Source: Tropicimonas sp. IMCC6043 (GTDB taxonomy: Bacteria > Pseudomonadota > Alphaproteobacteria > Rhodobacterales > Rhodobacteraceae). Taken from it: a DNA stretch of 64,000 nucleotides. The stretch lies in the NCBI RefSeq assembly GCF_004146235.1, contig NZ_SELO01000002.1, forward strand, positions 62,001-126,000, in the 5' to 3' direction. Under the pieces are notes generated by a model that searched no databases, was not told where the DNA came from, and saw nothing but the letters and a program-made list of their open reading frames with translations. The position numbers were made by a program, and so were the translations under genes. Of the stretch, positions 42,335-61,792 are shown in pieces; the stretch's first letter is position 1; each line of letters begins with the position of its first letter.

Positions 42335-43966
42335 TCAGAGCAGGATAGTGACGATTGGTGGCCAGATCAGCAGCACGGAGATGGCCGCGATCTGCACGCC
42401 GATGAACGGCAGGAAGCCCTGAAAGATGTCGGTGAGCGAGATGTGCTCGGGCGCCACCGACTTCAGGTAGAAGGCGGCGGGGCCGAAAGGTGGTGACAGG
42501 AAGCTCACCTGCATGTTCATACAAAACAACACCCCGAACCAGATCGAAACCTGCGCCGGCTCGAGCTGCCCGAAGAAGCCGATCTCGTCGATCGGCACAC
42601 GTTGCACGATCGGCAGGAAGACCGGGATGATCAGCAGAACGATACCGACCCAGTCCATGAAGGCGCCCATGAAGAGCAGGATCAGCATCATGGTGAGCAG
42701 GATCACCATGGTGGGCATCTCCGAGCCCACGATCAGGTCGGCGATGTAGCGCGGCCCGCCCGCCAGCGTGTAGGCACCCGCCAGCGCCGCGGCGCCGATG
42801 GTCACCCAGAGGATCGTGCCGGTCGAGCGCATGGTGCGCATCATGCCGTCCCAGAGCAGTTCGACGGAGGCTTCGCCGCGCAGCAGTGCAATGACGAAGA
42901 CCGCGAAGGCGCCCATCCCGGCGGCCTCGGTGATGCCCGTGATCCCGCCATAGATCGAGCCGAGCACAACGCCGATGACGGTGAAGGGCGGCACGAGGCC
43001 CTTGCCATGTGTCCAGCCGAGCCGGGCGCGCTCCCTGCCGAAGGCGAAGAAGGCCAGCGCGAACCCAAGAAGCATGAACCCGGCGAGCCAGGGCAGGTCA
43101 GACTGCATGCCTAGCACGATGGCGTCCTGCCCTTCGGCCAGATGTGTGTTCTGGCCGGTGACGGTGAAAAACAGCGCGCGAAGCAGCAACAGGCCGGAGA
43201 CGCCGCCCAGCAGCAGGCAAAGAAAGGCGCTGAACATGCCGAGTTTCTGGAACCCGGTCGGGTCGCCGGGCTTGCGCGGCGGGAGCGGGGCGTGGTCGGG
43301 ATTCATCTGGGTGCGCACGACGATATAGAGGATGATCATCGAGGCCAGCATGAAGCCCGGCAGAAAGGCGGCGGTGAAGAGCGCCTTGATCGAGGTCTCG
43401 GTGATGAGCCCATACATGATGAGCACGATCGAGGGCGGGATCATCGTTCCCAGGGTGCCCGAGGCGCAGATCGTGCCGCAGGCGAGGTTCTGGTTGTAGC
43501 CCAGTCGCAGCATCTGCGGCAGTGCGATCAGGCCGAGAAGCACGACCTCGCCGCCGACGATTCCCGACATCGCGGCCATGATGACCGCCATCAGTGAGGT
43601 CACGATCGCGACGCCGCCGCGCACCGAGGAGAGCCAGTAATCCAGTGCCTTGTACATCTCGCGGGCGACGCCGGACCGTTCCAGTAGCGCCGCCATGAAG
43701 ATGAAGAGCGGCACCGATATCATCACGTAATCCGTCAGAAGTCCGAAAACCTTCTGGGTGAGGATATAGAGCGGCCCCGTTCCCGGCCGTCCGGTCAGCA
43801 TGCCGTCACCGAAGGTGAGCGGGTTCAGCACCAGCGTCGGCTCGAATTTCAGGATCATCACCAGCACGGCCAGCGACAGCGAGGCAAAGGCCAGCGGCAT
43901 GCCGATCGCCAGGAGGACGACCAGCCCGAGGACCAGGATTATCGAGATTGTGCCGACGTCCATCAC
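42335..43966 (-). CDS. TRAP transporter large permease (DctM)
   Basis: 543 residues, longer than the usual 430 because of an extra membrane block in the centre (about 220-330), as in the long-type DctM proteins. About 14 hydrophobic segments. Overlaps the small-permease gene by an ATGA. It carries the substrate captured by the DctP encoded at 47165-48181, on the far side of the regulator, since no binding-protein gene exists in this operon. Confidence 0.92.
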   Translation of the reverse strand: MMDVGTISIILVLGLVVLLAIGMPLAFASLSLAVLVMILKFEPTLVLNPLTFGDGMLTGRPGTGPLYILTQKVFGLLTDYVMISVPLFIFMAALLERSGVAREMYKALDYWLSSVRGGVAIVTSLMAVIMAAMSGIVGGEVVLLGLIALPQMLRLGYNQNLACGTICASGTLGTMIPPSIVLIMYGLITETSIKALFTAAFLPGFMLASMIILYIVVRTQMNPDHAPLPPRKPGDPTGFQKLGMFSAFLCLLLGGVSGLLLLRALFFTVTGQNTHLAEGQDAIVLGMQSDLPWLAGFMLLGFALAFFAFGRERARLGWTHGKGLVPPFTVIGVVLGSIYGGITGITEAAGMGAFAVFVIALLRGEASVELLWDGMMRTMRSTGTILWVTIGAAALAGAYTLAGGPRYIADLIVGSEMPTMVILLTMMLILLFMGAFMDWVGIVLLIIPVFLPIVQRVPIDEIGFFGQLEPAQVSIWFGVLFCMNMQVSFLSPPFGPAAFYLKSVAPEHISLTDIFQGFLPFIGVQIAAISVLLIWPPIVTILL

Positions 43967-44811
43967 TCGACTCCGATATTGCGTTTGAGAGCTTCGATCT
44001 CGTCCTCGTCGACGTCATCCGCGGCGCTATGGACGACCTTTTCGAGGTTCCAGTCGTTGATCAGGTTGATGACCGCCTGAACTGCGATCAGTGTCATCAC
44101 GATCAGGATCGCCGGCAGGACCGTCGCCGGGATCGGCGGATCGAAGGCGGTGCCGAACATCTCCCACTTGTAGAACTTGTTGACGAAGACCTGCTGGTAG
44201 CTGCCGTAGACGAAGAAGAAGGCGAAAACGCAGATCAGCACGACTCCGAACGTATCGAAGGCGCGTTGCAGGTTGCGCGGAAGGGTGTCGTAGAGCAGGA
44301 AGATGCGGATATGGCCGCGCTGCTGCATCACGTAGAGGCCGGAGCACAGGAAGACAAAGCCCGCCAGCCATTGCGACAATTCGTTGGCCCAAAGCGTCGG
44401 ACTCTCCAGCACGTATCGCATGAAGACCTCGTAGAGCATGACCGACGTCATGGTGATGATGATGATCATCGTGACACGGCCAACGAACAGCGTCGGACGG
44501 TCGACGCGGCGCCATTTCTGGAACTCCGAATGCGCCACCTTCACCGTCAGGCAGCCGATGATGAAGAGGATCGGCACCATGACCAGCATCAGCCAGTCGA
44601 CGATATCGGCGTGACCGCCAAAGAGCCCGGGCAGCCCGGGCCAGATGTCCTTCTCCTCATAGAGCTGGCCCATGACATCCACGAGGCTCTGCTCCTTGGG
44701 CGGGTATATGTCGAGGATGAAGGCAGGCATCTGCCAGACCACCCACCCCGTGCAGAACAGGAAGGCGGCGGGAATGATCCATTCCCGGATGCCGCCAGTT
44801 GATTCGTTCAT
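43963..44811 (-). CDS. TRAP transporter small permease (DctQ, long form)
   Basis: 282 residues with five to six hydrophobic segments, longer than the common 170-residue DctQ, matching the long DctM partner. The central MYEVFMRYVLESPTLWANELSQW is the DctQ hallmark. The gene follows an enolase-superfamily gene after 12 bases and overlaps dctM. Confidence 0.9.
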   Translation of the reverse strand: MNESTGGIREWIIPAAFLFCTGWVVWQMPAFILDIYPPKEQSLVDVMGQLYEEKDIWPGLPGLFGGHADIVDWLMLVMVPILFIIGCLTVKVAHSEFQKWRRVDRPTLFVGRVTMIIIITMTSVMLYEVFMRYVLESPTLWANELSQWLAGFVFLCSGLYVMQQRGHIRIFLLYDTLPRNLQRAFDTFGVVLICVFAFFFVYGSYQQVFVNKFYKWEMFGTAFDPPIPATVLPAILIVMTLIAVQAVINLINDWNLEKVVHSAADDVDEDEIEALKRNIGVE

Positions 44812-44823
44812 GTCTCCTCCTCC

Positions 44824-45990
44824 TCAGGCGATCTTGTACTGGCGGATGAAGTCGCGGTCGGGCTCGACGCCGAGGCCCGGACCACCGGGGATCCGAACCC
44901 GGCCATGGTTGCGTCTGAGCTGTCCCTGGATGTCCAGAGGTTCCGTCAGAAGCTCGTCACGGAACTTGTTGTCGGTCGTGTCGAACTCGAGCATCGGTTC
45001 CCAGGGGAACAGGCCGCCCGGCAGGGGCGGCATGGCAGCCAGCAGGTGCAGGTTGGTGGCAACCGAGATCGCCGAGCCCCAGACATGGTTCACGACCGGC
45101 GTGAAATGGGCATGGCAGAGCGCCAGAACGCGCAGGTATTCCGAGATCCCACCGAGGGCGCAGACCTCGGGCTGGGCGATGTCGAGTCCGCGCGCTTCGA
45201 GGAGCCGCCGCCAGCCCCAGCGGGTGAACTCCGCCTCACCGCCGGAAATGTTGACCTTGAGGCGTGCACGCAACTCGGCATAGCCCTCGAGATCCTCAGG
45301 CGCCACCGGCTCCTCGAACCAGTACGCGCCGAGGTCCTCCAGCCCGCGTCCGACCTCGAAGGCGTCCGCGGTCGTGTAGGCGTGGTTGGCGTCGGCCATG
45401 AAGGGGAAGTCGTCGCCGATGCCGCGGCGCACCGCCTCGGCAAGCCGGATATCGTCCTTCGGCCCGAGACCAATCTTCATCTTTGTGGCGGCGAAGCCCA
45501 TCTCACGGATCGCCTCCGCCTCGTCGGTGAACCGCGCCGCGAGTTCGACGGCCGGTTCTGGGCGCAGCATCATTCCGTAGCCATAGGCGCTGACACTGTC
45601 GCGATGCGCCCCGCCGATGAGCTTGTGAAGAGGCAGGCCCGCGACCTTGCCCGCGATGTCCCAGAGCGCGATATCGACGCCCGAAAGCGCTTGTAGCGGC
45701 ATCCCCTTCTGGCCGTGGTCGCGCATCATGTTGTAGGCGCGGTGCCAGATCACGTCTCGGTCGAGCGGGTCGGAGCCGATCACCAGCGGTGCGATCACGC
45801 CCTCGACGATACCCTTGTTGGCCAGTGCCACTGGACCTGGCCCGAAGCATTCGCCCCAGCCAGTGAGTCCCTCGTCGGTTTCGATCTCGACGAGATGGGC
45901 GCTCCGGCGGGCGTAATATTGCTGCGAGTAGCCAAGAAGCTCCGGCATGTCATAGCCGAGCACGTGGCTCCGAACGGATGTGACCTTCAT
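44824..45990 (-). CDS. Enolase-superfamily enzyme, galactarolactone-cycloisomerase-like
   Basis: 388 residues, mandelate racemase/muconate lactonizing family. The capping domain has GWGECFGPGP. The barrel has KMK (Lys170, Lys172), metal ligands Asp200 (ADANH), Glu226 (WFEEP) and Glu252 (GGEAEF), and base His302 (NHVWGSA). From memory, the C-terminal EPMLEFD...GPGLGVE pattern is close to D-galactarolactone cycloisomerase. It heads the operon with the TRAP permeases and should act on an acid sugar or its lactone. The exact reaction is unknown. Confidence 0.85.
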   Translation of the reverse strand: MKVTSVRSHVLGYDMPELLGYSQQYYARRSAHLVEIETDEGLTGWGECFGPGPVALANKGIVEGVIAPLVIGSDPLDRDVIWHRAYNMMRDHGQKGMPLQALSGVDIALWDIAGKVAGLPLHKLIGGAHRDSVSAYGYGMMLRPEPAVELAARFTDEAEAIREMGFAATKMKIGLGPKDDIRLAEAVRRGIGDDFPFMADANHAYTTADAFEVGRGLEDLGAYWFEEPVAPEDLEGYAELRARLKVNISGGEAEFTRWGWRRLLEARGLDIAQPEVCALGGISEYLRVLALCHAHFTPVVNHVWGSAISVATNLHLLAAMPPLPGGLFPWEPMLEFDTTDNKFRDELLTEPLDIQGQLRRNHGRVRIPGGPGLGVEPDRDFIRQYKIA

Positions 45991-46312: not shown

Positions 46313-46975
46313 GTGGAGAGCGAGAGCCTTTTCGAACAGATGCGGGACCGTGTCGTCAGTGGAGAGTTCGCTCCCGGCCAGAGGCTGCGTGCGGAGGATC
46401 TGCGCTCGGATTACGGCGTCTCGGCCTCGACCATGCGCGAAATCCTTTTCCGCCTCTCGACCGTCTGCCTCGTTGATTTTCAGGAACAGCGCGGATTCCG
46501 CCTGACCAGCCAGTCGCCGGTGCTTCAGAACGACCTGACGACCTTCCGCATCCTTCTCGAATGCGAGGGCGCCTGCCTCTCGACCCGACTCGGCGGCGTC
46601 GAATGGGAGGCGCAGTTATCAGCGGCACATCACGCTCTAAGCCATATCGAGTCGCGCGTCCGCGCCGGTCAACCGTCCCGGGAGCTACTTGCGCTCTGGG
46701 TCCGTAGCGAGCTGGAGTTCCACCGCACTCTCATTTCGGCCTGCGGCAACGAAGTCCTCAGGGAGACCCATCTCAACGTCTTCTACCGGTTCCGTCAGCA
46801 ACTCATCACCAGCGACCGGCAGTTCTACGCCGTGCCGCAAAACATCGAACAGCACAAGGCGATCGTCGACGCGGCGCTGAGCAAAGACGAGGCGCTGCTC
46901 CGCACGCGGATCCACGACCATCTGATACAGAACCTGGTCGACCCGGCCAGCGTCCCGACCGGGGAGGCGACCTGA
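46313..46975 (+). CDS. GntR-family (FCD) regulator of the sugar-acid island
   Basis: 220 residues from a GTG preceded by GGGAGGAG. Winged helix at about 5-70 (LRAEDLRSDYGVSASTMREI) and a helical FCD effector domain at about 85-210. In-frame ATG codons upstream give an unrelated N-terminus and are rejected. It lies between the divergent enolase/TRAP-permease operon and the dctP/enolase genes, so it probably controls both, with an acid sugar as effector. Confidence 0.88.
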   Translation: MESESLFEQMRDRVVSGEFAPGQRLRAEDLRSDYGVSASTMREILFRLSTVCLVDFQEQRGFRLTSQSPVLQNDLTTFRILLECEGACLSTRLGGVEWEAQLSAAHHALSHIESRVRAGQPSRELLALWVRSELEFHRTLISACGNEVLRETHLNVFYRFRQQLITSDRQFYAVPQNIEQHKAIVDAALSKDEALLRTRIHDHLIQNLVDPASVPTGEAT

Positions 46976-47164: not shown

Positions 47165-48181
47165 GTGAAAACCATGTCCAAGCTTGCAGTCACCACTGCC
47201 ATCGCGCTCGGCCTCGCGGCGACCGCCGCCGGCGCCGCCGACGTCACGCTGCGCATCCAGAGCCACCAGTCCCCCGAATCGACCCAAGGCAAGCTGCTGG
47301 CGCAATTCGTCGAGAACATCGAGACGATGTCGGAAGGCTCGATCGCGATCGAAATGTTCTACTCCGCCGCCGTCGTGAAATCGGCCGAGACCTTCGACGC
47401 TGCCGCCACCGGCATCCTCGATTGCGACATGACCAACGGCTCCTACCAGACCGGCAAGAACCCAGCCTTCCAGTTCGTCGCGGACACGATGGGCGGCTAT
47501 GACACCCCGCTCCAGTATCTCGCCTGGATCAACTTCGGCGGCGGCAAGGAAGCCGTCAACGAGCTCTACAACCCCTATGGCATGACCTTCATCGGCGCCC
47601 AGGTCGGCGGCCAGGAATCGCTCGTCTCCACCAAGCCGCTGCCCGGCATTGACGCGCTCGGCAACTTCAAGTTCCGCTCGCCCCCGGGCATGGAAACCGA
47701 GATCTTCCAGAAGCTCGGCGCCAAGCCCGTCGTGATGGACTTCACCGAGGTCTTCACCGCGCTTGAAACCGGTATCGTGGACGGTGCCGATGCCTCTTCG
47801 CTCGCCGTGAATACCTCGATGGGCATCTACGACATCGCCAAGCACACCACCTATCCGGGCTTCCACTCGATGTCCTCCGACAGCCTGGCCTGCCGCACCG
47901 ATATCTGGGAGAGCCTGACCCCTGCGCAGCAGAAGATCATCGAGATGGCCCACAAGAACCTCATGGTCGACTATGTGATGAAGACCATGATCGAAAACGG
48001 CGAAGCGCTCGGCAAGCTGCATGAAATCGGCGTGACCACCTATGACTGGTCGGCCGAAGACCGCGCCAAGTTCCGCGATGGCGCCAAGGCGTCCTGGGAC
48101 GAATGGGCTGCCAAGACCCCCGAAGCGGCCAAGATGGTCCAGAGCCACAAGGACTTCATTGCCCGCATCGGCCTGGAGTAA
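47165..48181 (+). CDS. TRAP transporter substrate-binding protein (DctP)
   Basis: 338 residues with a cleavable signal (SKLAVTTAIALGLAATAAGAA). The GTG at 47165 follows AAAGGAA by six bases; an ATG at 47174 is the alternative. The DctP fold is recognisable by FRSPPGMETEIFQKLGAKPV, with the arginine expected to bind the substrate carboxylate, and by EVFTALETGIVDGAD. It should feed the permeases encoded on the other side of the regulator. A hairpin terminator follows directly. Confidence 0.92.
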   Translation: MKTMSKLAVTTAIALGLAATAAGAADVTLRIQSHQSPESTQGKLLAQFVENIETMSEGSIAIEMFYSAAVVKSAETFDAAATGILDCDMTNGSYQTGKNPAFQFVADTMGGYDTPLQYLAWINFGGGKEAVNELYNPYGMTFIGAQVGGQESLVSTKPLPGIDALGNFKFRSPPGMETEIFQKLGAKPVVMDFTEVFTALETGIVDGADASSLAVNTSMGIYDIAKHTTYPGFHSMSSDSLACRTDIWESLTPAQQKIIEMAHKNLMVDYVMKTMIENGEALGKLHEIGVTTYDWSAEDRAKFRDGAKASWDEWAAKTPEAAKMVQSHKDFIARIGLE

Positions 48182-48274: not shown

Positions 48275-49366
48275 ATGCCCAGGATCGAGTCCGTCCGGAC
48301 CCGCCTCTTCAACGTGCCGCTCGCCGAGCTGCTCGTTGACGCAAAGCACGGCAACCACACCCATTTCGAGCTGATCACCGCGACGGTGACGCTGGAGGGC
48401 GGCGCCACCGGCACCGGCTATACCGTGACCGGCGGCCGTGGCGGCCATGCCATCGAGGCGATGATCGAGCACGATCTTGGCCCCTGGCTCATCGGACGTG
48501 AGGCCGATCCGGTGGAAGAGCTCTGGGACGGGATGCAGTGGTATGTCCACTATGTCGGCCGCGGTGGCGTCGCCTCCTTCGCAATCGCCGCGCTCGATAT
48601 CGCGCTCTGGGACCTGCGCGGCAAGGCGCGCGGCGAGTCCCTCCTGAAGATGGCCGGCGGCACCTCCGACCGCTGCCGCTGCTACGGCGGCGGGATCGAC
48701 CTCAACTTTCCGCTTCCCAAGCTCCTGAAGAACATCCAGGGCTACCTCGACCGTGGCATGACCGCGGTGAAGATCAAGGTCGGCCAGCCGACGCTCGAAG
48801 AGGACGTCGACCGTGTCCGCGCGGTCCGCGACCTCATCGGCCCCGAGGCCGGTTTCATGGTCGACGCCAACTTCTCGATGAGTGTCGAGGAGGGCATCGC
48901 CGCGGCCGAGGCGTTCAAGCCCTTCGACCTCATCTGGTTCGAGGAGCCGATCATCCCTGACGATTACGCGGGCTACGGCCGCATTGCCGAAGCCACCGGC
49001 CACCCGCTCGCCGCGGGCGAGAATCTGCACACGATGATCGAGTTCGAAACCGCCTTTGCACAGTCGAAACTGAGCTACATCATGCCCGACGCCGGCACCT
49101 GCGGCGGCATCACTGCATGGCTGAAGGTCGCCGAGATGAGCCGCAAGGCGGGTATCGAGGTCTGCAGCCACGGCATGCAGGAGCTTCAGGTGAGCCTCGT
49201 CTCCGCGCAGCCGAATGCCGGCTGGCTGGAGGTCCATTCCTTTCCCGTGGATGAGTACACCACCCGCCCGCTGGTGATCGAAGGCGGCAAGGCGGTGGCT
49301 CCGGACGTTCCGGGCATCGGCGTTGAGTTCGATTGGGAGAAGCTCGCACCGCACGAGGCGGGATGA
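48275..49366 (+). CDS. Enolase-superfamily acid-sugar dehydratase-like enzyme
   Basis: 363 residues starting at the ATG after GGGAGGA. Barrel motifs: KIK (Lys166, Lys168), metal ligands Asp197 (MVDANF), Glu223 (WFEEP) and Glu249 (AAGENL), base His299 (CSHGMQE). This is a mandelate-racemase-like active site, usual in acid-sugar dehydratases. It is distinct from the enzyme at 44824, so the island holds two non-identical family members. The substrate is unknown. Confidence 0.85.
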
Positions 49367-49419: not shown

Positions 49420-49449
49420 GCACCGGCCCGGAGGCCTCCGGGCCGGTGC
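49420..49449. terminator. 30-bp perfect palindrome between convergent genes
   Basis: Fifteen-base arms (left arm GCACCGGCCCGGAGG) are perfectly self-complementary without a spacer. It sits between the convergent enolase-type gene (ends 49366) and the ApnO-like gene (ends 49534). No T-tract is present; a bidirectional terminator or cruciform-prone site is the likely meaning. Confidence 0.65.
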
Positions 49450-49533: not shown

Positions 49534-50361
49534 TCAGGTGATCCGCTTGACGCTGTCGAGGATCTCCTGCTTCTCGAAGACCTTCTTCCAGTCGTCCTTC
49601 ATCAGCGTCGGCACGCCGAACTCGATGGCCTTGTTGCAGGCATCGGAGAAGACGCCCTCAACCTCGCCGAAGATCACCGCTCCGAGGATGTTCATGTGCC
49701 CAAGCAGGAAATCGCGGGCGCAGGCCTCGGAGACGCCGGTCTTCACCACTTCGTCCATCGCCTGTTTCATCACCGTCAGCAGCGATGCACAGACGGTCTC
49801 GGAGAGGCCGGGCTCGAGATAGGCCATCTGCTCGACCGTGCAGCGATAAGTGTCGCGGACCGGCGCGTAGATCGCCCGAGCGACGGCATCGCCCATCGCA
49901 TAATGCTCCTCCGGTCCCTGCATCAATGCGTTCACGACGCCCTGCGGCGCGGCGATGCCGCCGAAATGGTCGTGCAGCGCTTCCTGGGTCTCGGAATAGT
50001 TGAAGATCACCGGGTGGCAGGGATGGGTGATGAAATAGGTGATGTCCGCGCGCTCGGGCAGGTAGCCGGCATAGGGCGCCGCGGCGTCGAGGATGACGAC
50101 CATCGTGCCGGGCGCGAGTTGCGGGATCAGGTCCTTGGCGACCTTGCCGATCACCGTGTCCGGAATCGCGAGGATCACCACGTCGGCACCGTCGATCGCC
50201 GCGTCTGCTGGGACCGCCTCGGCGCCGATCTCCTCTTTCAGCCGCTTGAGCCCGGCGTCGGAGACCTCGACATGGCGGGTCTCGAAATCGGTCTTGGCCA
50301 GGTTCCGGCCGAGCCGAATTCCCATCTTCCCGCCCGCGCCGAACAGGGCAATCGTGGTCAT
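49534..50361 (-). CDS. ApnO-like D-apionate oxidoisomerase / 6PGDH-fold dehydrogenase
   Basis: 275 residues. A Rossmann motif (ALFGAGGKMGIRLGRNLA) starts the protein and a helical 6-phosphogluconate-dehydrogenase-type C-terminal domain follows. The size and the divergent DUF1537 kinase plus nearby RuBisCO-like protein match the D-apionate oxidoisomerase that forms 3-oxo-isoapionate. GGAGGAG lies before the ATG at 50361. The assignment rests on recognition and context; another branched or linear acid sugar is possible. Confidence 0.68.
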   Translation of the reverse strand: MTTIALFGAGGKMGIRLGRNLAKTDFETRHVEVSDAGLKRLKEEIGAEAVPADAAIDGADVVILAIPDTVIGKVAKDLIPQLAPGTMVVILDAAAPYAGYLPERADITYFITHPCHPVIFNYSETQEALHDHFGGIAAPQGVVNALMQGPEEHYAMGDAVARAIYAPVRDTYRCTVEQMAYLEPGLSETVCASLLTVMKQAMDEVVKTGVSEACARDFLLGHMNILGAVIFGEVEGVFSDACNKAIEFGVPTLMKDDWKKVFEKQEILDSVKRIT

Positions 50362-51829: not shown

Positions 51830-53020
51830 ATGGTGGCCGCCCTAGCCCCAGGACGCGGCGCACTCGGGAAGCTCCAGGCAGCGCTCGCCGCCGCGTCCTT
51901 CATGCTGCTCCTGGCGGGCACAAACACGACGACGCCACTGCTGCCGCTCTATCGCGACATGCTCGGCTTCTCCCCCCTCACCGTCACGCTCACCTTCGTC
52001 GCCTATGTCAGCCTGCTGGTGGCGACGCTCGCCGTCGCGTCCGGCCCCAAACTCGTGCGCTATGCCCCGAGCGTTCTCGTCGCCGCGCTCGCAGTCGCCC
52101 TGCTGGCTGACCTCGCGCTTTCCACCGGAACGGCGCCTGGCATCTTGGCCGGACGCGCACTCCAAGGGGTCTCCAGCGGCATCGGCACTGGCGCGGCGGC
52201 GGCGCTTGTCGTCGCGGTGGTCGGCAACCGCGGTCGGGCGCTCACCGCAACCGGCAACCTCGCCGGGGCGATCCTCGGCACCGCGGCGGCACAGGCCGTG
52301 CTGCACCTGGCGGGCGCCCGCGCCATCAGCATCAGCTTCGAGATCCACGCCGGCGTTTGACTCGCGGTCGCACTGCCGCTCCTTGTCATCCTGAGACTGC
52401 GCGCGGACGCCAACCGGGCCGCCATCCATGTTCCGACCGGGACGCTCCCCCCGCTCCGCCCCGCCCTGCTGCGGCACTGGCGAGAGCTCCTCTCCGGCTG
52501 CATCTCCTGGTGCGCGATCTCGATCTACATCGTCTTCCTGCCGACCTGGTTTTTCGATTGCGGCCTGCCCCGCGCGCAGGCGCTCGCCGTCCCACTCATG
52601 CTGCTCGGCTCGCTCGCCGCGCAGCTCTCGAGCGCCGCGCTCGCTCGGGCTTTCCCGGCCGCCAGTGGCATGACCGCGCTGGCCCTCGGCATCGCAGCCA
52701 CCCTCGCGGGCGGCGCCCTCCTCAGTGACTTCGCCGCGGCGCTCGGCTGCCTTGTCGCCGGGGCGGGCGCCGGCCTGTCCTTCCGCTGTGCGCTGGTGCT
52801 GCTCACGCGCGGCGCTTCGCCTGCCGGACAGGGGCGCCTCGCCTCGGCCTATGCGGCGATTACCTATCTCGCCGCGGCCGCGCTGGTGCTGCTCTGCGGT
52901 GCGCTGGTAAACCGTTTCGGGTCGACCGACGTCACAATGGCCCTGTTCGCCGCCACCGCCGCCGCAGCACTGTCCGCGCGGCGGTTCGCGCCGAGGATCG
53001 GCCGCCTCACGACGCCCTGA
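51830..53020 (+). pseudogene. MFS transporter interrupted by one in-frame TGA
   Basis: The frame starts three bases after the kinase stop and encodes a hydrophobic 12-segment transporter of about 396 codons. It is cut by a single TGA at 52358-52360 after residue 176, between the first and second halves. The same frame continues without further stops to 53020. TGG to TGA would explain it, giving a lost Trp. Other genes here use TGA as a normal stop, so recoding is not suggested. Nonsense mutation or sequencing error are the options. Confidence 0.75.
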
Positions 53021-54351: not shown

Positions 54352-54382
54352 CTCATTATACCACTTGGAGTAGCGCTGTCAC
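54352..54382 (-). promoter_or_regulatory. Strong sigma-70-like promoter of the RuBisCO-like gene
   Basis: On the minus strand GTGACA, a 16-base spacer and TATAAT in an extended form (TGGTATAATGAG at 54363-54352). The transcript would start about 25 bases before the ATG. The TGGTATRATGAG string also occurs before the DUF1537 kinase gene. Confidence 0.65.
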
Positions 54383-54612: not shown

Positions 54613-55545
54613 TCAGGCGCGCGGCAGGATGCGGCGCAGGGTCTGGAGGTTCTTGCCGCAGACCGACAGTCCGTCGCCGCCATAGCTCTCAAGCAGGATC
54701 GGGCTGGCGAAGCCTTCGGCCAACGCCATGCGGATCGCCTCGCGGTAGTTGATGATACCGAATTCGATCGGCACCGGAGCGGAGGAAATCGCACCCGTCG
54801 CCGGGTCCTCGTCACGGATGTAGTTCTTGACGTGCCAGTATTTCATGAAGGGCGCGACTTCGGCCATCATGACGTCCCATTTTGGCATCGGCCGGTGCAG
54901 GCGCACGAGGTTGCCGATATCGGCACAGATACCGACATTGTCGCGATCCACGTCCGTCACGAAGCGCACCGCGCTCTCAGGCGTGCCCATGTAGGTGTCT
55001 TCATACATTTCCATGGCGATGGAAATGCCGACCTCCTTGGCGTGATCGGCCAGTTCGCGGATGCGGTCGACGGCCAGCTTCCAGGTCTCCGGATCATCGG
55101 GGTTCTTGTATCCTTCGGCCAGCCAGAACCAGAGCACCTGCTTCTGCGCCTCGGTGAACGGCCCGAAGAAGCCGAACGCGACCTCCTCGGCGCCGAGATC
55201 GGCGGCAGTGTCGAGGAAGCGGTGGCAATAAGCCAGCATCGCGTCACCCTCGACCGGGTCGATCACGCATTTGCGCGAGGTCGACATCGCCGGGATCGTC
55301 AGCCCGGCTTCCTTCACAACCGCCTTGAACTCCTCGAGGCGCGGCTTCTCGAGATCGGCCACCCGCATCCAGCTGTCGGTCGGGTCGAGCTCCGTGAAGC
55401 CTTCGTCGGCCACTTGCGCGAGCGTTTCGGCCCAGACTTCGGCCGGCGCGTCCTGCACCAGGCTGCCATCGGGCAGCGTTGGCGCGAACGGGATCATCGC
55501 ACAGGCGATCGGCCAGTTGTCCCGGGTCCATTTGTATTTCGACAT
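54613..55545 (-). CDS. Xylose-isomerase-like TIM-barrel enzyme (OiaC/LerI-like)
   Basis: 310 residues. Metal-ligand positions expected of the family are visible: Glu in AMEMYEDTYMG, Asp in ICADIGNLVRL, His in YWHVKNY and Glu in LLESYGGDG. Such enzymes isomerise or epimerise sugars; OiaC, a 3-oxo-isoapionate decarboxylase, and LerI, an erythrulose-phosphate isomerase, have this fold as remembered. Either activity would suit the neighbouring DhaK/DhaL genes. GGAGG precedes the ATG. Last gene before a clear terminator. Confidence 0.8.
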   Translation of the reverse strand: MSKYKWTRDNWPIACAMIPFAPTLPDGSLVQDAPAEVWAETLAQVADEGFTELDPTDSWMRVADLEKPRLEEFKAVVKEAGLTIPAMSTSRKCVIDPVEGDAMLAYCHRFLDTAADLGAEEVAFGFFGPFTEAQKQVLWFWLAEGYKNPDDPETWKLAVDRIRELADHAKEVGISIAMEMYEDTYMGTPESAVRFVTDVDRDNVGICADIGNLVRLHRPMPKWDVMMAEVAPFMKYWHVKNYIRDEDPATGAISSAPVPIEFGIINYREAIRMALAEGFASPILLESYGGDGLSVCGKNLQTLRRILPRA

Positions 55546-55549
55546 GGTA

Positions 55550-56539
55550 TTAGCCTCCGATTTTTCCGCCCAGCTCGTCATCGATATGGATGCGGATGAT
55601 TTCGTCAAAACTGCTCTCGGCGGTGAAGCCGAGCTCGCGCGCACGGGTGCCGTCGAAGCGCTGTGCCCAGCCGCCGACGATGCCCCGAATGGTCTCGTCA
55701 GGAACGCGCTTGATCAGCGCCGCGACCTTGGGTCCGGCGACCCGTTCCAGCGCAGCGATCTGCTCGCCGACCGTGGCCGAGAGGCCCGGCATCGACAGAT
55801 TGCGACGCGGACCGATCTTCGACGTGTCCATCGTCGCGGCATGCGTGAAGAAGCCCACCGCGGAGCGGGGGCTGGCGAACCAGTGGCGCACGCTTTCGTC
55901 GACCGGCAGCACCGCTTCCTGGCCTGCCAGCGGTTCGCGCAGGATGTTGGAGAAGAAGCCCGAGGCCGCGGCGTTGGGTTTTCCGGGCCGGACACAGATG
56001 GTCGGAAGCCGGATGCCGACGCCATCGAAGATGCCGCGGCGCGAATAATCAGCCAGCAGTAGCTCGCAGATCGCCTTCTGGGTGCCGTAGCTGGTGAGCG
56101 GCGTGCAGAAGAAATCGTCCGGGATCGACGGCGGGAAGGGCGCGCCGAAGACAGCGACCGAAGAGGCGAAGACCATCCGCGGGCAATAGGGCGCCTTCAG
56201 CCCCTCGGCGCGGATCGCGTCGAACAGCGCCCGCGTGCCATCGAGGTTGACGCGGTAGCCCTTGTCGAAATCGGCCTCGGCCTCGCCTGAGACGACGGCG
56301 GCCAGGTGGATCACGAGGTCGGGCCGCTCGGCGGCCAGAGCCGCGGCAGCGCCCGGCTCGGAAAGGTCGACCGTTTTCGAGCTCGACACCCCTGCGAGCG
56401 CCGCAGGCGCCTCGGGTGCAAAGACATCGACGAGGGTCAGGCTGTCGATCTGCCCTCCGAGCACGCCGGGCTCGGCGGCCACCTTTTCCAGCAGCTTGCG
56501 GCCGACCATTCCGGCCGCGCCGATCACCAATACCTTCAT
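55550..56539 (-). CDS. denD: NAD-dependent epimerase/dehydratase family, DenD-like
   Basis: 329 residues, extended SDR. The dinucleotide motif GAAGMVGRKL is at the N-terminus and the catalytic YGTQK and Ser (FASSVAVFG) are present. The start MKVLVIGAAGMVGRK, the GVLGGQIDSLTLVDV segment and the length recall D-erythronate dehydrogenase DenD. It would oxidise a C4 or branched acid sugar to its 2- or 3-keto form. It is followed five bases later by the TIM-barrel gene. Confidence 0.78.
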   Translation of the reverse strand: MKVLVIGAAGMVGRKLLEKVAAEPGVLGGQIDSLTLVDVFAPEAPAALAGVSSSKTVDLSEPGAAAALAAERPDLVIHLAAVVSGEAEADFDKGYRVNLDGTRALFDAIRAEGLKAPYCPRMVFASSVAVFGAPFPPSIPDDFFCTPLTSYGTQKAICELLLADYSRRGIFDGVGIRLPTICVRPGKPNAAASGFFSNILREPLAGQEAVLPVDESVRHWFASPRSAVGFFTHAATMDTSKIGPRRNLSMPGLSATVGEQIAALERVAGPKVAALIKRVPDETIRGIVGGWAQRFDGTRARELGFTAESSFDEIIRIHIDDELGGKIGG

Positions 56540-56615: not shown

Positions 56616-58685
56616 TCATCCCGTAGCCACCGGCGCGACCCGGAAGGCCGGCGTGTGGCAGGGATGGTCGAGCAGCCCTTTCAGCTCCGCGTCGAGATGC
56701 ATCATCGTCACCGACATGCCGACCATGTCGAGCGAGGTGCAGTAGTGACCGGCCCAGCTTCTGGCCACGACGACGCCGCGCGCCTTGAGCCGTTGGCGCA
56801 CCCGGCGGCCGATGATGTGCAGCTCCATCAGCGGCGTCGCCCCAAGCGAGTTGAGGAGCAGCGCCACTTCGTCGCCCTGCTTCGGGTCCATGGCGGTGAG
56901 GATCCGATCCACCACCAGGTCGGCGGTGTCGTCGGCGTTTTCCAGCGCCTGGCGCGCCACTCCGGGCTCGCCATGGATGCCGACACCCACCTCCATTTCA
57001 CCGGCGCCAATGGCGAAGAGTGGCCGCTGCGTCTCGGGCAGCGAGCAGGGCTCGAGTGCTACGCCGATCGTATAGCTGCGGTCGTTGGCCTTGCGCGCCA
57101 GCGCCGCAACCTCGACGAGCGGCAGCATCCGGTCCGCCGCCGCCCCCGCCGCCTTGAAGACGAGGACATTGCCCGCCACCCCGCGGCGCGCCTGCCGCTC
57201 GCCGGCGGACGCAACGTCGTCGGTCGTCACCAGCGTCCGGACCGCGATCCCTCCGGAGTCCGCCATCTCCGCAGCCATCTCGAAATTCATCACATCTCCG
57301 GAATAGTTTCCGAAGAGGTGTAGCACGCCCGCCCCGCCGTCGGCGGCGCGGGTGGCGTCGAGGATCGGCCCCGGTGGCGGCGAGGCAAAGACATTGCCGA
57401 TTGCCACGGCATCGGCCATGCCGCGGCCAACATAGCCGAGGAAGCAGGGGTCGTGCCCGGCGCCGCCGCCGATCACCACGCCGACCTTGCCCGGGCGAGG
57501 CCCGTCGAGCGCGACAAGCGCACGGTTGGACCCGCGCACCGGCCGCAGGAAGCCGGCATAGTCCGCCACCGCCCCCTCGAGCGCCTCGTCGACCGCCTCG
57601 TCGGGCGCATTGAGGAATTTCTTCACGCGGGTCCGCACGGGCAGTCCCGCGACGGTTTCCTGGCCGGGCCGAACCTGCGGCACGGAAAGGCCCTCGGCAT
57701 GCAGGATCCCTGCCCCTGTCGCAGCGTCAGTCACCAGCACGTTGGCATGGCCGCCGCGCAGAGCCGCAAGGATCGCGGGGACCTTGTCGACCCCGCCGGC
57801 AATGGCGATCCGCTGCGGCACGCGGGCGAGATCCTCGAGCGTGATGCCGATCATCCGCGCCTCAAGCGGACCGGAGACCGGCAGACCGCGCGCGTCGACG
57901 AAATGGCCAGCAATCTCACCCACCGCACCGGCATAGGCGTCCCGGAACATCGGACCGTCCTTTAGCAGGCCCGAGGCATGCAGGGTCGAACTCGGCCGCA
58001 TCGAAGCGATGCCAAGGACGATCCGGTTGAGTTCGGCGAGGCAGGCGAGTTGCTCGCGTACCGGGCTTTCGCGGCAGAGCAGGTCGCGCAGCTCGGGGGT
58101 CGAGACGATCGCCGGCGCTGAGAGCGGAATGCATTCCGCACCGATAGCCGCGGCCATGGCCGTCGCGCAGGCGGCGGGCGTATAGGGCACGTGTGCGCTG
58201 GTCGAGCCGGTCACCTGGACGACGCGGATATCCTGCAGCGCCTCGGTCGAGAGCGCCTTGGCCGCCGCAAGTACCGAGCGGCCCCAGCCCACCCCGATCG
58301 TGTCGCCGGAGCGGAAGAGCGCACGCAGCGCCTGTGCGCCGGCCGCGCCAAGGCTCTCGACCAGCGGCCGCTCACCGCCGGTGCTAGGGATGACCAGGCA
58401 ATCCTTCAGCCCGAAATGCTCGGACAGGCTGCGAGCCACCGAGAGCGCGCGCAACCTGTTCGTCTCGATGGAGATATTCACGATCCCGCGGGTTCGCGCA
58501 TCGGCCAGATAGGAGATGACGGACGCTCGCGAGACACCGATGATCCGGGCGATGTCGCTTTGCGTCATCCCTTCTTCGTAATAAAGCCAGCTCGCCCAGA
58601 GCAGCAGGTCGTCTCCGAAGCGCAGCGGCACCCCGGCGCCGGCATCGGCACCGCGGGCGCTTCCGGAGGAACTGCGCGGCGGCAT
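56616..58685 (-). CDS. SorC-type regulator fused to DhaK kinase subunit
   Basis: 689 residues. Residues 20-335 are a SorC/DeoR sugar-binding regulator (HTH MTQSDIARIIGVSRASVISY, effector domain after it). From about 350 a full DhaK domain follows: GGGAGHDPCFLGYVGRGM and GIHGEPG, whose His (about 571) covalently holds the ketose. GHDP replaces the commoner GHEP. The ATG at 58685 overlaps the dhaL stop by one base (TGATG). The fusion may couple kinase flux or substrate binding to transcription. Confidence 0.88.
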   Translation of the reverse strand: MPPRSSSGSARGADAGAGVPLRFGDDLLLWASWLYYEEGMTQSDIARIIGVSRASVISYLADARTRGIVNISIETNRLRALSVARSLSEHFGLKDCLVIPSTGGERPLVESLGAAGAQALRALFRSGDTIGVGWGRSVLAAAKALSTEALQDIRVVQVTGSTSAHVPYTPAACATAMAAAIGAECIPLSAPAIVSTPELRDLLCRESPVREQLACLAELNRIVLGIASMRPSSTLHASGLLKDGPMFRDAYAGAVGEIAGHFVDARGLPVSGPLEARMIGITLEDLARVPQRIAIAGGVDKVPAILAALRGGHANVLVTDAATGAGILHAEGLSVPQVRPGQETVAGLPVRTRVKKFLNAPDEAVDEALEGAVADYAGFLRPVRGSNRALVALDGPRPGKVGVVIGGGAGHDPCFLGYVGRGMADAVAIGNVFASPPPGPILDATRAADGGAGVLHLFGNYSGDVMNFEMAAEMADSGGIAVRTLVTTDDVASAGERQARRGVAGNVLVFKAAGAAADRMLPLVEVAALARKANDRSYTIGVALEPCSLPETQRPLFAIGAGEMEVGVGIHGEPGVARQALENADDTADLVVDRILTAMDPKQGDEVALLLNSLGATPLMELHIIGRRVRQRLKARGVVVARSWAGHYCTSLDMVGMSVTMMHLDAELKGLLDHPCHTPAFRVAPVATG

Positions 58686-59335
58686 CACCCGGCCCTCAGC
58701 GCGAGAACGTCGGCAAAGGCGGCGACGAGGATCGCTGCGGAGGCTGCGCCGGGGTCGACATGACCGAGGCTGCGCGCCCCGAGCCGCGCGGCGCGACCGC
58801 GCGACGCGGTCATGCTGCGCGTCGCCTCGGCCGATTGCGCTGCGATCTCCTTGAGATCGGCCAGCGTCGCGGCGAGCGGTGTGCCCCGCGCTTGTTCGGT
58901 CCTCGCCGCCTGTGCCACCGGAAGCCAGACATCCATCATCGTCTTGTCGCCCGCCGCGGCCTTTCCCCGCTGCCCGATACCTTCGGCAAGCGCGACCAGA
59001 AGCATCGGCGCTTCCGCCGCCGGAAGCGACTTGCGCCCCTCGGCCCAGGCACCCGCGCGCAGGAGACCCGACGCATAAAGAGGCCCGGCGGTCGCACCCA
59101 CGGCATCTAGGAAGCTTCCGGCACAGAGCGCGAAAAGTGCCGTAAGATCGGTGGCGGCGGGATCGACCTCGTTCAAGGCCCGCAGAATGGCGGCGAAACC
59201 ACGCGCCATGGTGGTGCCATGGTCGCCGTCGCCGATCGCGCCGTCGAGGCGGCCGAGTTCCTCGGTCGCTTCGGTCAGCCGCGCCGCCGCCTCGCGCAGC
59301 ACCGCCATCACATCCTCGACGCCGACCTCGGCCAT
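58685..59335 (-). CDS. dhaL: DhaL-type kinase subunit, copy 1
   Basis: About 216 residues, all-helical DhaL domain. GDGDHG (magnesium aspartates), AGPLYA, GDKTMMD and GRAARLGARSLGHVDPGA are present. The ATG at 59335 is eight bases after GGGAG; one at 59341 is too close. It supplies ATP- or phospho-donor activity for the SorC-DhaK fusion encoded next, likely phosphorylating a ketose such as erythrulose or dihydroxyacetone. Confidence 0.88.
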   Translation of the reverse strand: MAEVGVEDVMAVLREAAARLTEATEELGRLDGAIGDGDHGTTMARGFAAILRALNEVDPAATDLTALFALCAGSFLDAVGATAGPLYASGLLRAGAWAEGRKSLPAAEAPMLLVALAEGIGQRGKAAAGDKTMMDVWLPVAQAARTEQARGTPLAATLADLKEIAAQSAEATRSMTASRGRAARLGARSLGHVDPGAASAAILVAAFADVLALRAG

Positions 59336-59361
59336 TTGCATGTCTCCCGCGGGCCGCCCGC

Positions 59362-60006
59362 TCACGCGTCCGACAGGCGGCTTGCAGTGCCCTTCGCGAG
59401 CGCGCAGAGGATCAGCGCACAGGAGGTGGCTCCGGCATCCTGTACCCCGCGCGAGCGCTCGCCGAGCCGCGCCGCCCGGCCGACCTTCGCCACCATGTCG
59501 ATGGTCGCGTCGCGCCCGGCCTCGGCTGCCGCGCACATCGCCTCGAGCGCCGCCGACATACCGCTGCCGGCCGCGAGCGCCTTTCCGTAGGCGTCGACCG
59601 CCGGCACATAGGCGTCGAGCAGCGTCTTGTCGCCGGGCTCGGCCGAGCCAATGTCTCTCACCTCGTCGAGCCCTGCCTGCAGCATCGCGCCGAAATCCTC
59701 GGCGTCGATCTCTTCTGCGCCCTCGATCGCCTCGGCCATGCCGGAGAACATCATCCCGTAGAGCGGCCCCATCGAGCCGCCGATCTCCGACATCAGGACG
59801 TCCGACAGCACCGAGAGCGCCTCGGCCAGGCTCTCGCCGCCTTCCAGCCGCTCGGCCGTTCGACCGAACCCCTTGGCCATGTTCACGCCATGGTCACCGT
59901 CGCCGATCTTGCCGTCGATCTCCGAAAGCCATGCCTTGTTCTCGACGATGACGGCCGCCAGTTCGGCAACCAAGCCGCCATTTCCGGCATTCGCAATGCG
60001 TTCCAT
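59362..60006 (-). CDS. dhaL: DhaL-type kinase subunit, copy 2
   Basis: 214 residues, the same fold as the neighbouring copy but clearly diverged. GKIGDGDHGVNMAKG keeps the metal aspartates, GGSMGPLYG is nearer to the usual DhaL signature than copy 1's GATAGPLYA, and GDKTLLD is present. AGGAGG precedes the ATG. First gene of the operon, behind a promoter region rich in inverted repeats. Two DhaL proteins for one DhaK domain is odd. Confidence 0.88.
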   Translation of the reverse strand: MERIANAGNGGLVAELAAVIVENKAWLSEIDGKIGDGDHGVNMAKGFGRTAERLEGGESLAEALSVLSDVLMSEIGGSMGPLYGMMFSGMAEAIEGAEEIDAEDFGAMLQAGLDEVRDIGSAEPGDKTLLDAYVPAVDAYGKALAAGSGMSAALEAMCAAAEAGRDATIDMVAKVGRAARLGERSRGVQDAGATSCALILCALAKGTASRLSDA

Positions 60007-60174: not shown

Positions 60175-60233
60175 GTGCGGGACATCCCGTCAATCCCGCC
60201 CCGTAACGAAATGTCACGCCCCCAACGCCCAAG

Positions 60234-60268
60234 GAAAAGGCCGCCGGAACGTTACGTTCCGGCGGCCT
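60234..60268 (-). terminator. Rho-independent terminator after transaldolase gene
   Basis: Perfect 15-base arms (AGGCCGCCGGAACGT and complement) around one base, followed on the minus strand by TTTTCCTT. Located about 33 bases after the minus-strand gene ending at 60301, it isolates that gene from the dhaL operon. Confidence 0.85.
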
Positions 60269-60300
60269 GTGCGGAGCCCACGAGGGAAGAGGCGCCGCTC

Positions 60301-60954
60301 TCAGAGAATGGACTGCCCGGTCGCGGCCCAGTCCTTGGAGAACTGCTCGAGCCCCTTGTCGGTCAGGACGTGCTTGGCGAGGCTCTTGATGACGCCCGGC
60401 GGAATCGTCGCCACGTCGGCACCGACGATCGCAGCTTCCTTGACATGGTTGGGCGAGCGAATCGAGGCGGCGAGGATCTGAGTCTCGTAGCCGTAATTGT
60501 CATAGATCGCCCGGATCTCCCGGATCAGTTCCATGCCGTCGATATGGATGTCGTCGAGCCGGCCGAGGAAGGGCGAGATATAGGTCGCGCCCGCCTTGGC
60601 GGCAAGCAGAGCCTGATTGGCTGAGAAGCAGAGAGTGACATTGGTCTTGACGCCCTTGTCGGTCAGATAGCGGCAGGTCTTGAGCCCGTCGAGCGTGAGC
60701 GGCAGCTTGACGACCACGTTGTCGGCGATTGCGGCGAGCACGTCGGCTTCCTTCACCATGCCCTCGTAATCAAGCGCGGCAACCTCGGCGGAGACCGGGC
60801 CGTCGACGATCTCGCAGATCTCGGCGATCACCTCCTTGAAGTCGCGTCCCGACTTGGCGATCAGCGAGGGGTTGGTGGTGACCCCGTCTAGCAGACCGTA
60901 ATCGTTGAGTTCCTTGATATCCTCGGTCACGGCAGTATCGACGAAGAACTTCAT
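60301..60954 (-). CDS. tal: Small transaldolase (TalC/Fsa family)
   Basis: 217 residues, single-domain TIM-barrel transaldolase. Lys83 in VVVKLPLT forms the Schiff base. The [10 protein letters not shown] segment carries Phe where fructose-6-phosphate aldolases have Tyr; Phe is the transaldolase-type residue, so transfer between sedoheptulose/fructose phosphates and erythrose 4-phosphate is more likely than F6P cleavage. AAAGGA precedes the ATG. Divergent from the RpiB-like gene. Confidence 0.87.
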
Positions 60955-61336
60955 CTGGCTTCCTTTCTTCTCAGCAACGCCCCAACCCGGGCGACGAGGG
61001 CACCGATACGATGCCACATTCCTTCCAGACCATCGAGTCCGCTGCGCTGCAACCCCGGACGACCGGCGGATTGCCCGCTGCGAGGCGCCGGGTCCGGCGG
61101 TGGCCTGTGACAACCGATTCCCTTGGCACGTCGCGCCTCTCGCCACATTCTATTAACGCAAACGTCACATGTGTTCAACACAATATCCCATTAATTGCGT
61201 TACAGAACGGGGAAAATGGTTGTGATTCCCACATGAGATGTTACAAACGGCCTGCACGCATGACGCACTCCGCGGCCTTCAGCCCTTCCACCTGCACGAC
61301 GCAGGGAAGGGCGGCCGCCGGAAGAAAGGACCGAAA
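60955..61336. other. Divergent promoter region, tal and rpiB-like genes
   Basis: 382 bases. The AT-rich core 61140-61255 contains the TAACGCAA inverted repeat and CACATGTG, and should hold both promoters. The parts near each gene contain only leader sequence and ribosome sites; no coding frame was convincing. Confidence 0.5.
61154..61202. promoter_or_regulatory. Inverted repeat in tal/rpiB-like divergent promoter
   Basis: TAACGCAA (61154-61161) and TTGCGTTA (61195-61202) are perfect inverted 8-mers with centres 41 bases apart (about four turns). Between them lies CACATGTG. Looping by a regulator of both genes is possible. Confidence 0.45.
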
Positions 61337-61792
61337 ATGAAACTTGCAGTGGCCGGCGATTCCGCCGGCAAGGGCCTCGCCCACGAGCTCGCCGAATATC
61401 TCAAGGACCGCTACGAGGTGACCGAGGCCACCGCAGGCCCGGAAGGCGAGGAGAAATTCTACGCCGACATGGCTGACCGCGTTGCCTCTGCAGTGGCCGA
61501 CGGCACCTATGACAAGGCCATCCTCTGCTGCGGCACCGGGATCGGTGTCTGCATGTCCGCCAACAAGGTGCCTGGCATCCGCGCAGCGCATCTGCACGAC
61601 TGCTATTCCGCCGAGCGCGCGGCCCTGTCGAACAACGCCCAGGTCATCACGATGGGCGCGCGGACGCTCGGCGTCGAACTGGCCAAGAAGATCGCCGACA
61701 CCTTCCTCGAGCTTACCTTCGACGAGGCAGGCCGTTCCGCCGGCAATGTCGACGCGATCAACAGGGTCGACGCGAAATACAACAAAAGCTGA
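61337..61792 (+). CDS. RpiB/LacAB-family isomerase (DerI-like)
   Basis: 151 residues. The C-C-G-T-G-I-G catalytic Cys region ([20 protein letters not shown]) is intact. The first motif is GDSAG instead of the GDHAG-type of ribose-5-phosphate isomerase B, so the usual His is Ser. Beside DhaK/DhaL genes, D-erythrulose-4-phosphate isomerase (DerI), giving erythrose 4-phosphate, is likely. AAAGGA precedes the ATG, and a terminator follows. Confidence 0.85.

Follow-up and report, generated by a model that had tools for sequence, protein, structure and literature searches.

Carter et al. are said to have described, in 2018, a degradation of D-apionate that employs a RuBisCO-like decarboxylase and proceeds through ApnO, OiaK, OiaX, LerI and DerI. 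OiaC is a xylose-isomerase-type decarboxylase of D-apionate degradation, and for ApnO, OiaK, OiaC, LerI and DerI we use the reactions assigned to them there. The D-apionate work of Carter et al. 2018 is cited in PMC6302742, and apionate reactions are touched on also in PMC11747546. The 3,6-anhydro-L-galactose (AHG) pathway of Vibrio sp. EJY3 consists of an AHG dehydrogenase and a cycloisomerase (PMC9706016). Here we analyzed a window of 64,000 nucleotides (the whole stretch of DNA examined, G000:C79:62001-126000) from Tropicimonas sp. IMCC6043, whose genome comprises 5.46 Mb in 293 contigs. Positions 42335-61792 of the window hold an island of sugar-acid genes, which an initial annotation had joined into one pathway for a wider or different substrate; all genes named in that annotation were found there, as open reading frames with matching Pfam and NCBIfam families. 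On balance, we favor the view that the island is assembled from three acid-catabolic modules (A, B and C) with the following substrates and reactions, which are predicted from sequence comparison.

Module A would import, through a TRAP system, already oxidised 3,6-anhydro-D- and 3,6-anhydro-L-galactonates derived from the anhydrogalactoses of carrageenan and agar, and its two enolase-superfamily enzymes, Eno1 and Eno2, would each open the ring of one of them to give 2-keto-3-deoxy-galactonate, with genes for the next steps located elsewhere in the genome. In module B, ApnO would turn D-apionate into 3-oxo-isoapionate, the OiaK-like kinase would phosphorylate it, and the RuBisCO-like OiaX would decarboxylate the phosphorylated product to L-erythrulose 1-phosphate. 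In module C, OiaC would decarboxylate first and SorC-DhaK with DhaL would phosphorylate afterwards; the erythrulose phosphates would pass through LerI and DerI to erythrose 4-phosphate and, by way of a transaldolase, into the pentose-phosphate pathway. The reaction order of modules B and C is presumed to be that of the published D-apionate pathways.

The island genes lie in six runs of alternating strand: DctM, DctQ and Eno1 (-); GntR, DctP and Eno2 (+); ApnO (-); OiaK and MFS (+); OiaX (-), continued upstream on the same strand by OiaC, DenD, SorC-DhaK, DhaL1, DhaL2 and transaldolase; and DerI (+). Spacing is -4 to 20 bases inside DctMQ-Eno1, DhaL2-DhaL1-SorC-DhaK and DenD-OiaC and 76 bases from SorC-DhaK to DenD, while the OiaC-OiaX gap measures 289 bases and contains a promoter-like site of OiaX. 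Among 80 related loci of the RuBisCO-like protein (RLP), kept of 501 found and with neighbor genes counted within 10 kb, none holds Eno1 or Eno2 (at least 55% identity) and none holds OiaC. Conversely, RLP, ApnO and OiaC are absent from all 71 other Eno2 loci, around each of which up to 20 kb was fetched, several stretches ending at contig ends; the identity and distance thresholds of the neighborhood counts for Eno2, OiaC and RLP loci are our own choice. OiaC and OiaX lie more than 1 Mb apart on pSymB of S. meliloti and on different plasmids in Paracoccus sp. TOH and P. liaowanqingii, and the excerpts of the literature matches listed contain no treatment of the two together. DctQM, GntR, Eno1 and Eno2 form a cluster that recurs in the family.

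The initial annotation implied a single island in which every enzyme receives its substrate through the TRAP importer and the enolases, as extra dehydratases, work on acids of that one pathway by dehydration or isomerisation. All of the genes are indeed contiguous, and the importer and DenD may share a ligand because the DctPs of the clade described below adjoin DenD (5 of 8) or lie near RLP (2 of 8). Against this stand the alternating strands, the absence of each set of genes from the loci of the other, and the match of both enolases to ring-opening cycloisomerases of algal sugars. We consider a single wide pathway improbable, and neighboring modules are the better reading.

As far as sequence and neighborhood can tell, module B matches the published D-apionate route. 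In this the initial annotation was borne out, as it was for the erythrulose/erythrose-4-phosphate part. OiaX passes the equivalog model NF042437 and would be the decarboxylase. The ApnO-like protein passes no equivalog model; as to its neighborhood, an ApnO relative is present in 72 of the 80 RLP loci and a kinase in 76, and the same neighbors are found beside OiaX in the window. Its identity to the corresponding gene in the OiaX run of Rhizobium etli is 67%. In the closest RLP relatives, from Tropicimonas (L005) and Gemmobacter caeni (L006), the gene order RLP-MFS-OiaK-ApnO is that of the window and the MFS frame in the RLP-OiaK interval is uninterrupted; the in-frame TGA of the MFS gene in the window may be a true lesion or a sequencing error.

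The run on R. etli p42f comprises OiaX, a four-carbon acid kinase, a triose-phosphate isomerase (TIM), an RpiB-type isomerase and an ApnO-like gene, followed by a ribose-type ABC importer, a Gfo/Idh gene, a large hypothetical protein, DhaK and DhaL. The genes beside RLP loci are presumed to include an apiose dehydrogenase and a lactonase. Relatives of this ABC importer, Gfo/Idh gene and presumed lactonase occur within 10 kb in 53, 64 and 60 of the 80 RLP loci. No close relative of any of the three was found in the window, and the locus therefore seems to start at the acid. The genome also encodes, separately from the RLP, a RuBisCO large subunit (L001:961-2490; PRK04208, 790 bits, cut-off 438).

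Module C probably leads from erythrulose to erythrose 4-phosphate. Both alternative lower branches named in the initial annotation, OiaK-OiaX and OiaC-DhaK/DhaL, are present. OiaC relatives are rare, being found in 4 of 394 genomes of the family (E 1e-40), 2 of 385 of the class and 5 of 398 of the phylum (E 1e-60), our own genome included each time, and the sole PDB sequence relative of OiaC is 5tnv (331 bits), listed only as an AP-endonuclease-family protein. We examined 15 other OiaC loci (8 regions were fetched of 95 plasmid records with OiaC), which are not independent because several come from related Sinorhizobium-type genomes. A DhaK/Dak kinase is encoded in 11 of them, a TTT permease in 8 (of which one is just 36% alike), TIM and RpiB in 2 each and DenD in 1; RLP is encoded in none. 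TIM, RpiB or both accompany OiaC and the kinase in L123, L223 and L224, where the product is most simply erythrulose. A LerI-type TIM gene and a DeoR regulator (together L160:6905-8541, about 64904-66540 in window numbering) sit a short way beyond the window edge, and the former would close the gap on the way to erythrose 4-phosphate; an assumption that LerI is missing would thus be wrong.

DenD passes the equivalog model NF043036 and shares 74% identity with the DenD adjoining OiaC in L120. SorC-DhaK relatives are annotated as bifunctional regulator/DhaK, and on plasmids of Thalassospira, Aureimonas, Paracoccus and Roseibium SorC-DhaK and DhaL stand beside a second DhaK-DhaL kinase, which in three of these four plasmid types is one long gene annotated DhaL; the second DhaL of the window may be a leftover of such a kinase pair. 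The small transaldolase was rejected as a fructose-6-phosphate aldolase on its lower score to the FSA structure 1l6w than to 1vpx, though it passes TIGR00875 (fsa_talC_mipB). Transaldolase-like genes (31-34% identity) near RLP in 4 of the 80 loci fit a disposal of erythrose 4-phosphate. A separate observation concerns L140, L219, L220, L221, L222 and L225, where genes for a GntR regulator, a PdxA-family dehydrogenase, TctCBA, OiaC and a relative of the DhaK-DhaL fusion form a conserved run that lacks ApnO; in these loci the substrate of OiaC may be supplied through the PdxA-like enzyme, an entry reaction so far overlooked.

The same genes could serve a kinase-last tetronate route, in which DenD oxidises a C4 acid, OiaC decarboxylates the resulting 3-oxo acid to dihydroxyacetone and SorC-DhaK/DhaL makes dihydroxyacetone phosphate. 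The DenD of the window is 73-75% identical to those on three plasmids of rhizobia, and two of these plasmids carry in addition relatives of OtnK, OtnC and the TIM-barrel protein next to DenD; 8 of the 11 OiaC loci with a kinase show neither TIM nor RpiB within the stretch. However, the isomerase genes of L123, L223 and L224 fit erythrulose, the protein Tal is a transaldolase and not a dihydroxyacetone-using aldolase, and for none of the Thalassococcus proteins 3-oxo-tetronate kinase (OtnK), decarboxylase (OtnC) and OtnC-adjoining TIM-barrel protein (OtnI) was a separate relative found in the window. We regard this route as unlikely.

Judged by their sequences, Eno1 and Eno2 most resemble the 3,6-anhydro-D- and 3,6-anhydro-L-galactonate cycloisomerases, respectively, that act in the breakdown of carrageenan and agar. 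Over 358 residues, Eno2 shares 59.8% identity with the 3,6-anhydro-L-galactonate cycloisomerase 5xd7 and keeps, as read from the alignment, the KIK motif, the metal ligands and the His residue that is replaced by Asn in 5xd9. Eno1 shares 64% identity with an enolase encoded on a Pseudoalteromonas carrageenovora plasmid, where an aldehyde dehydrogenase gene precedes it and genes for KDGal kinase and then KDPGal aldolase follow; a sulfatase and a glycosyl hydrolase of family 16 are encoded close by. The dau names of these plasmid genes were given by matching gene order to PMC6262041, in which genes of strain 9T in that order are named dauABCD and the strain is reported to grow on 3,6-anhydro-D-galactose. 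In the alignment, Eno1 also keeps the catalytic Lys, metal ligands and His (residue list from PMC5698469). Assignment of the enolases as galactarate/talarate or galactonate dehydratases was rejected, with all NCBIfam equivalog scores far below cut-off. That Eno1 and Eno2 act on pectin-type acids, as galactarolactone cycloisomerase and talarate/galactarate dehydratase, is quite unlikely: the top PDB match of Eno1 is the galactarolactone cycloisomerase 4ggb (PMC5698469) and the top NCBIfam model of Eno2 is talarate/galactarate dehydratase, but the latter reaches only 229 bits against a cut-off of 500, Eno2 scores 513 bits to the anhydro-L-galactonate enzyme versus 181 to the talarate/galactarate dehydratase 2pp0, and the four best plasmid relatives of Eno1 all adjoin an aldehyde dehydrogenase, two of them also a KDGal kinase and a KDPGal aldolase.

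For the proposed anhydrogalactonate cycloisomerases, the form in which the substrate enters the cell is suggested by the neighbors of Eno2, a protein with relatives in 72 of the 394 genomes of the family (E 1e-100). We counted as TRAP-linked those loci with a DctM of at least 58% or a DctP of at least 48% identity within 9 kb of Eno2. By this measure, 34 of the 71 loci have a TRAP importer of the window type, 8 a ribose-type sugar ABC importer, none both and 29 neither, several of the last class being cut by contig ends. An AHG-type aldehyde dehydrogenase (at least 40% identity) is encoded in 7 of the 8 ABC-linked loci and in none of the 34 TRAP-linked ones (Fisher test, TRAP versus ABC, p = 3e-7), which suggests that module A probably takes up finished anhydrogalactonates; this is the simplest reading and not proof. 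Eno1 is present in 15 TRAP-linked and no ABC-linked loci, an ADH gene in 13 and all 8, and an SDR gene in 14 and 7, respectively. On the Eno2 tree (short rows and rows with a stop excluded; bootstrap had not settled) the TRAP label needs 8 changes and the ABC label 6, at least three of each by well-supported branches. The two states are thus mixed, and the pattern does not go back to one inheritance. TRAP binding proteins take mostly carboxylates (PMC4646407), and in the excerpts of the literature matches listed TRAP uptake of anhydrogalactonates is not treated.

The search for a dehydrogenase covered our own genome and, in the other TRAP-type genomes, the fetched stretches. In the window no AHG dehydrogenase lies within 9 kb of Eno2, and the closest relatives in the genome share 38% identity with it and 37% with the dauA type. 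The 38% relative, an aldehyde dehydrogenase on contig C62, is an unlikely candidate, as it neighbors PfkB kinase, DeoC/LacD aldolase, fucose-isomerase-like and Gfo genes. The run L303:517-8302 comprises DeoR, PfkB kinase, DeoC/LacD aldolase, fucose-isomerase-like, Gfo/Idh, aldehyde dehydrogenase and 2-hydroxyacid dehydrogenase genes. The second-best relative, on C58, adjoins a lipoyl-domain protein and a 2-oxoacid dehydrogenase acyltransferase. On C293 an ADH and an SDR, 64% and 77% identical to those adjoining Eno2 in Paracoccus seriniphilus, neighbor genes for glucose-6-phosphate dehydrogenase, phosphogluconolactonase and phosphoglucose isomerase. DgoK and DgoA are encoded on C79 near 221 kb.

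The importer itself appears mixed by sequence, with a DctM of the module A type and a DctP whose clade is associated with loci for DenD or apionate use. The DctM of the window has a median identity of 77% to 10 DctMs from Eno2 loci holding Eno1, and its DctP a median of only 53% to 15 DctPs from such loci. In a tree of 69 DctPs, 29 of the 32 Eno2-linked proteins lie across the first fork from that of the window and none falls in its clade. In a tree of 70, the DctP of the window belongs to a clade of nine; the additional protein, from L012, has an in-frame stop and was left out of the former tree and entered in the latter with an X at the stop. Five of the eight other clade members (L193, L195, L196, L197 and L032) have a DenD-family gene next door, and all four of these genes that were scanned pass the DenD equivalog model; no DctQM of the window type lies near these five DctPs. 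RLP lies within 10 kb of two members, L032 and the long-branched L012, whose locus also contains ApnO, kinase, TIM and DerI, and the remaining two of the eight have neither DenD nor RLP nearby. The tie between importer and island drawn in the initial annotation is thus supported in part, through DctP; DctQM goes with the enolases and GntR. The clade of the binding protein speaks for a role in apionate/erythronate use; the PDB relatives of DctP are mostly named as TRAP or solute-binding proteins only, with some binding lactate, keto acids or sialic acid, and are not decisive on the ligand.

Several observations weigh against this three-module scheme. Since DctP, the specificity part, is outside the Eno2-linked clade, uptake of anhydrogalactonates by this particular TRAP system is not assured. 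The 29 Eno2 loci that have neither type of importer likewise lack the AHG-type dehydrogenase, and TRAP loci are therefore not alone in missing it; under a looser test the TRAP locus L287 has a 33% dehydrogenase relative nearby, and the plasmid loci L147 and L149 combine Eno2, ABC importer and dehydrogenase with a nearby TRAP system of another type (DctM 27-32% identical to that of the window). From one bacterium to another, AHG dehydrogenases share only some 40% identity (PMC9706016), and the 38% relative could therefore still perform this step. Neither Eno1 nor Eno2 passes an NCBIfam equivalog model, and Eno1 scores higher to 4ggb (311 bits) than to DauB, 5olc (277 bits); these two structures are themselves 41% identical (PMC5698469), and thus the PDB score alone is not decisive for Eno1. 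The OiaK-like kinase falls below the cut-off of NF042436 and was not filed as an OiaK member. Its low score was dropped as proof of another function, as the R. etli kinase scores alike (473 bits) and kinases adjoining OiaX in R. etli, Salipiger, Tropicimonas and Gemmobacter together span 445-483 bits; the cut-off of 700 bits looks too strict. DerI narrowly misses its own cut-off, which the R. etli protein passes with 257.9 bits. With ApnO in none of the 15 OiaC loci and a PdxA-family gene in 10, the substrate of OiaC there may not stem from apionate via ApnO. The scheme also leaves unexplained the role of DenD and the presence of two DhaL genes with one DhaK.

Taken further, and only tentatively, these patterns would divide Rhodobacteraceae into sugar eaters, with ABC importer, dehydrogenase and cycloisomerase, and acid eaters, with TRAP importer and D- and L-cycloisomerases without the dehydrogenase, which would live on anhydrogalactonates released by others. 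In Tropicimonas sp. IMCC6043, the binding protein of the acid-eater TRAP system would have been replaced by one of erythronate/apionate type, and in the adjacent island two decarboxylases, one of them RuBisCO-like, would act on 3-oxo-isoapionate with phosphorylation before or after. If so, anhydrogalactonates would be a traded metabolite of seaweed decay, TRAP-Eno1-Eno2 without the dehydrogenase would mark their consumers, and both known modes of 3-oxo-isoapionate decarboxylation, the one that uses a RuBisCO-like protein and the one that does not, would stand side by side in one organism. Apiose comes from land plants and anhydrogalactonates probably from red-algal gels, so that two unrelated kinds of sugar acid would meet in one stretch. 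The modular reading also corrects a view by which enzymologists would search the apionate route for a sugar-acid dehydratase. Each part has a known relative, and it is the junction, the mixed TRAP importer and the TRAP-without-dehydrogenase pattern that look new.

Table 1. Features of the island and associated genes (window numbering unless a locus is given)
Feature	Position	Strand	Evidence
DctM, TRAP large permease, module A	42335..43966	-	PF06808 218 bits
DctQ, TRAP small permease, module A	43963..44811	-	PF04290 83 bits; 4-base overlap with DctM
Eno1, mandelate-racemase-group enolase, module A	44824..45990	-	64% to P. carrageenovora plasmid enolase; PDB 4ggb, 5olc
GntR/FCD regulator, module A	46313..46975	+	PF00392, PF07729; 62-63% to GntR adjoining DctPQM in L125, L126
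DctP, TRAP solute-binding protein, DenD/apionate-linked clade	47174..48181	+	PF03480; clade support 100/100
Eno2, probable 3,6-anhydro-L-galactonate cycloisomerase	48275..49366	+	59.8% to 5xd7
Terminator-like stem, Eno2/ApnO interval	49420..49449	-	13-pair stem; weak
ApnO-like, D-apionate oxidoisomerase-like, module B	49534..50361	-	PF16896 228 bits, family level only
OiaK-like four-carbon acid sugar kinase, module B	50456..51826	+	NF042436 466 bits, cut-off 700
MFS transporter gene, in-frame TGA 52358-52360	51830..53020	+	PF07690 first piece 28.4 bits, below 33.4 cut-off
OiaX, predicted RuBisCO-like 3-oxo-isoapionate-4-phosphate decarboxylase, module B	53040..54323	-	NF042437 749.6 bits, cut-off 700
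Promoter-like site of OiaX	54355..54382	-	11/12 consensus bases
OiaC-like TIM-barrel decarboxylase, module C	54613..55545	-	PF01261 111 bits, family level only
DenD-like D-erythronate dehydrogenase, module C	55550..56539	-	NF043036 353.6 bits, cut-off 325
SorC-DhaK, sugar-binding regulator fused to DhaK, module C	56616..58688	-	PF04198, PF02733
DhaL1, module C	58685..59341	-	TIGR02365 168 bits, cut-off 138
DhaL2, module C	59362..60006	-	TIGR02365 168.6 bits, cut-off 138
Terminator-like stem, transaldolase/DhaL2 interval	60238..60268	-	14-pair stem; weak
Transaldolase, small type, module C	60301..60954	-	1vpx 269 bits, 1l6w 110 bits
DerI-like D-erythrulose-4-phosphate isomerase, module C	61238..61792	+	NF051858 232.3 bits, cut-off 240
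LerI-type triose-phosphate-isomerase gene	~64904-65671, 0.9 kb outside window		73% to that of R. etli
OiaX-adjoining kinases scored	L142:13257-14591, L141:2614-3966, L005:12755-14050, L006:12483-13862		NF042436 445-483 bits

The start of OiaX was picked from its ribosome-site context. The terminator-like stems are weak, because 6 such sites were found in the region versus 8.3 expected by chance; promoter-like sites numbered 3 versus 1.7 expected. No RNA family reached its gathering score and no tRNA was found; neither were mobile-element-like repeats, those in 41500-62500 being short and imperfect only. Elsewhere in the window, positions 22664-29539 contain a GH43 beta-xylosidase-type gene, a sugar-binding protein gene and a Gfo/Idh gene, perhaps a xylo-oligosaccharide locus. 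At 10109-13512, an asparagine-synthase-like gene is followed by a GNAT/RimK-like gene, a pair reminiscent of N-acetylglutaminylglutamine amide synthesis. A 561-residue frame that holds 62875-63795 (62084-63795 area; L160:4876-6561) has no Pfam match at E 1e-6, and the adjoining frame 62084-62806 has an 18-base repeat array at 62286-62375.

Compared with known systems, the ApnO-OiaK-OiaX-LerI-DerI route has all five enzyme types at hand here, with LerI outside the window. R. etli p42f has OiaX, kinase, TIM, RpiB and ApnO in a row, and L005 and L006 share the RLP-MFS-OiaK-ApnO order, whereas the R. etli-type ABC importer, Gfo/Idh and presumed lactonase set that system apart from the window. The OiaC-kinase operons resemble module C in placing OiaC beside DhaK and DhaL; they differ in their PdxA-family gene (10 of 15), TTT permease (8 of 15) and lack of ApnO and OiaX; the window has DenD instead, and ApnO and OiaX adjoin. 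With the Vibrio sp. EJY3 pathway (PMC9706016) module A shares the cycloisomerase, represented by Eno2, but no close AHG dehydrogenase was found in the genome and a TRAP system replaces the sugar importer. Finally, in relation to the dauABCD pathway of Zobellia and Pseudoalteromonas (PMC5698469, PMC6262041), Eno1 corresponds to the gene in the dauB position of P. carrageenovora; dauA was found neither nearby nor as a close relative, and the kinase and aldolase genes are found about 113 kb away on the same contig.

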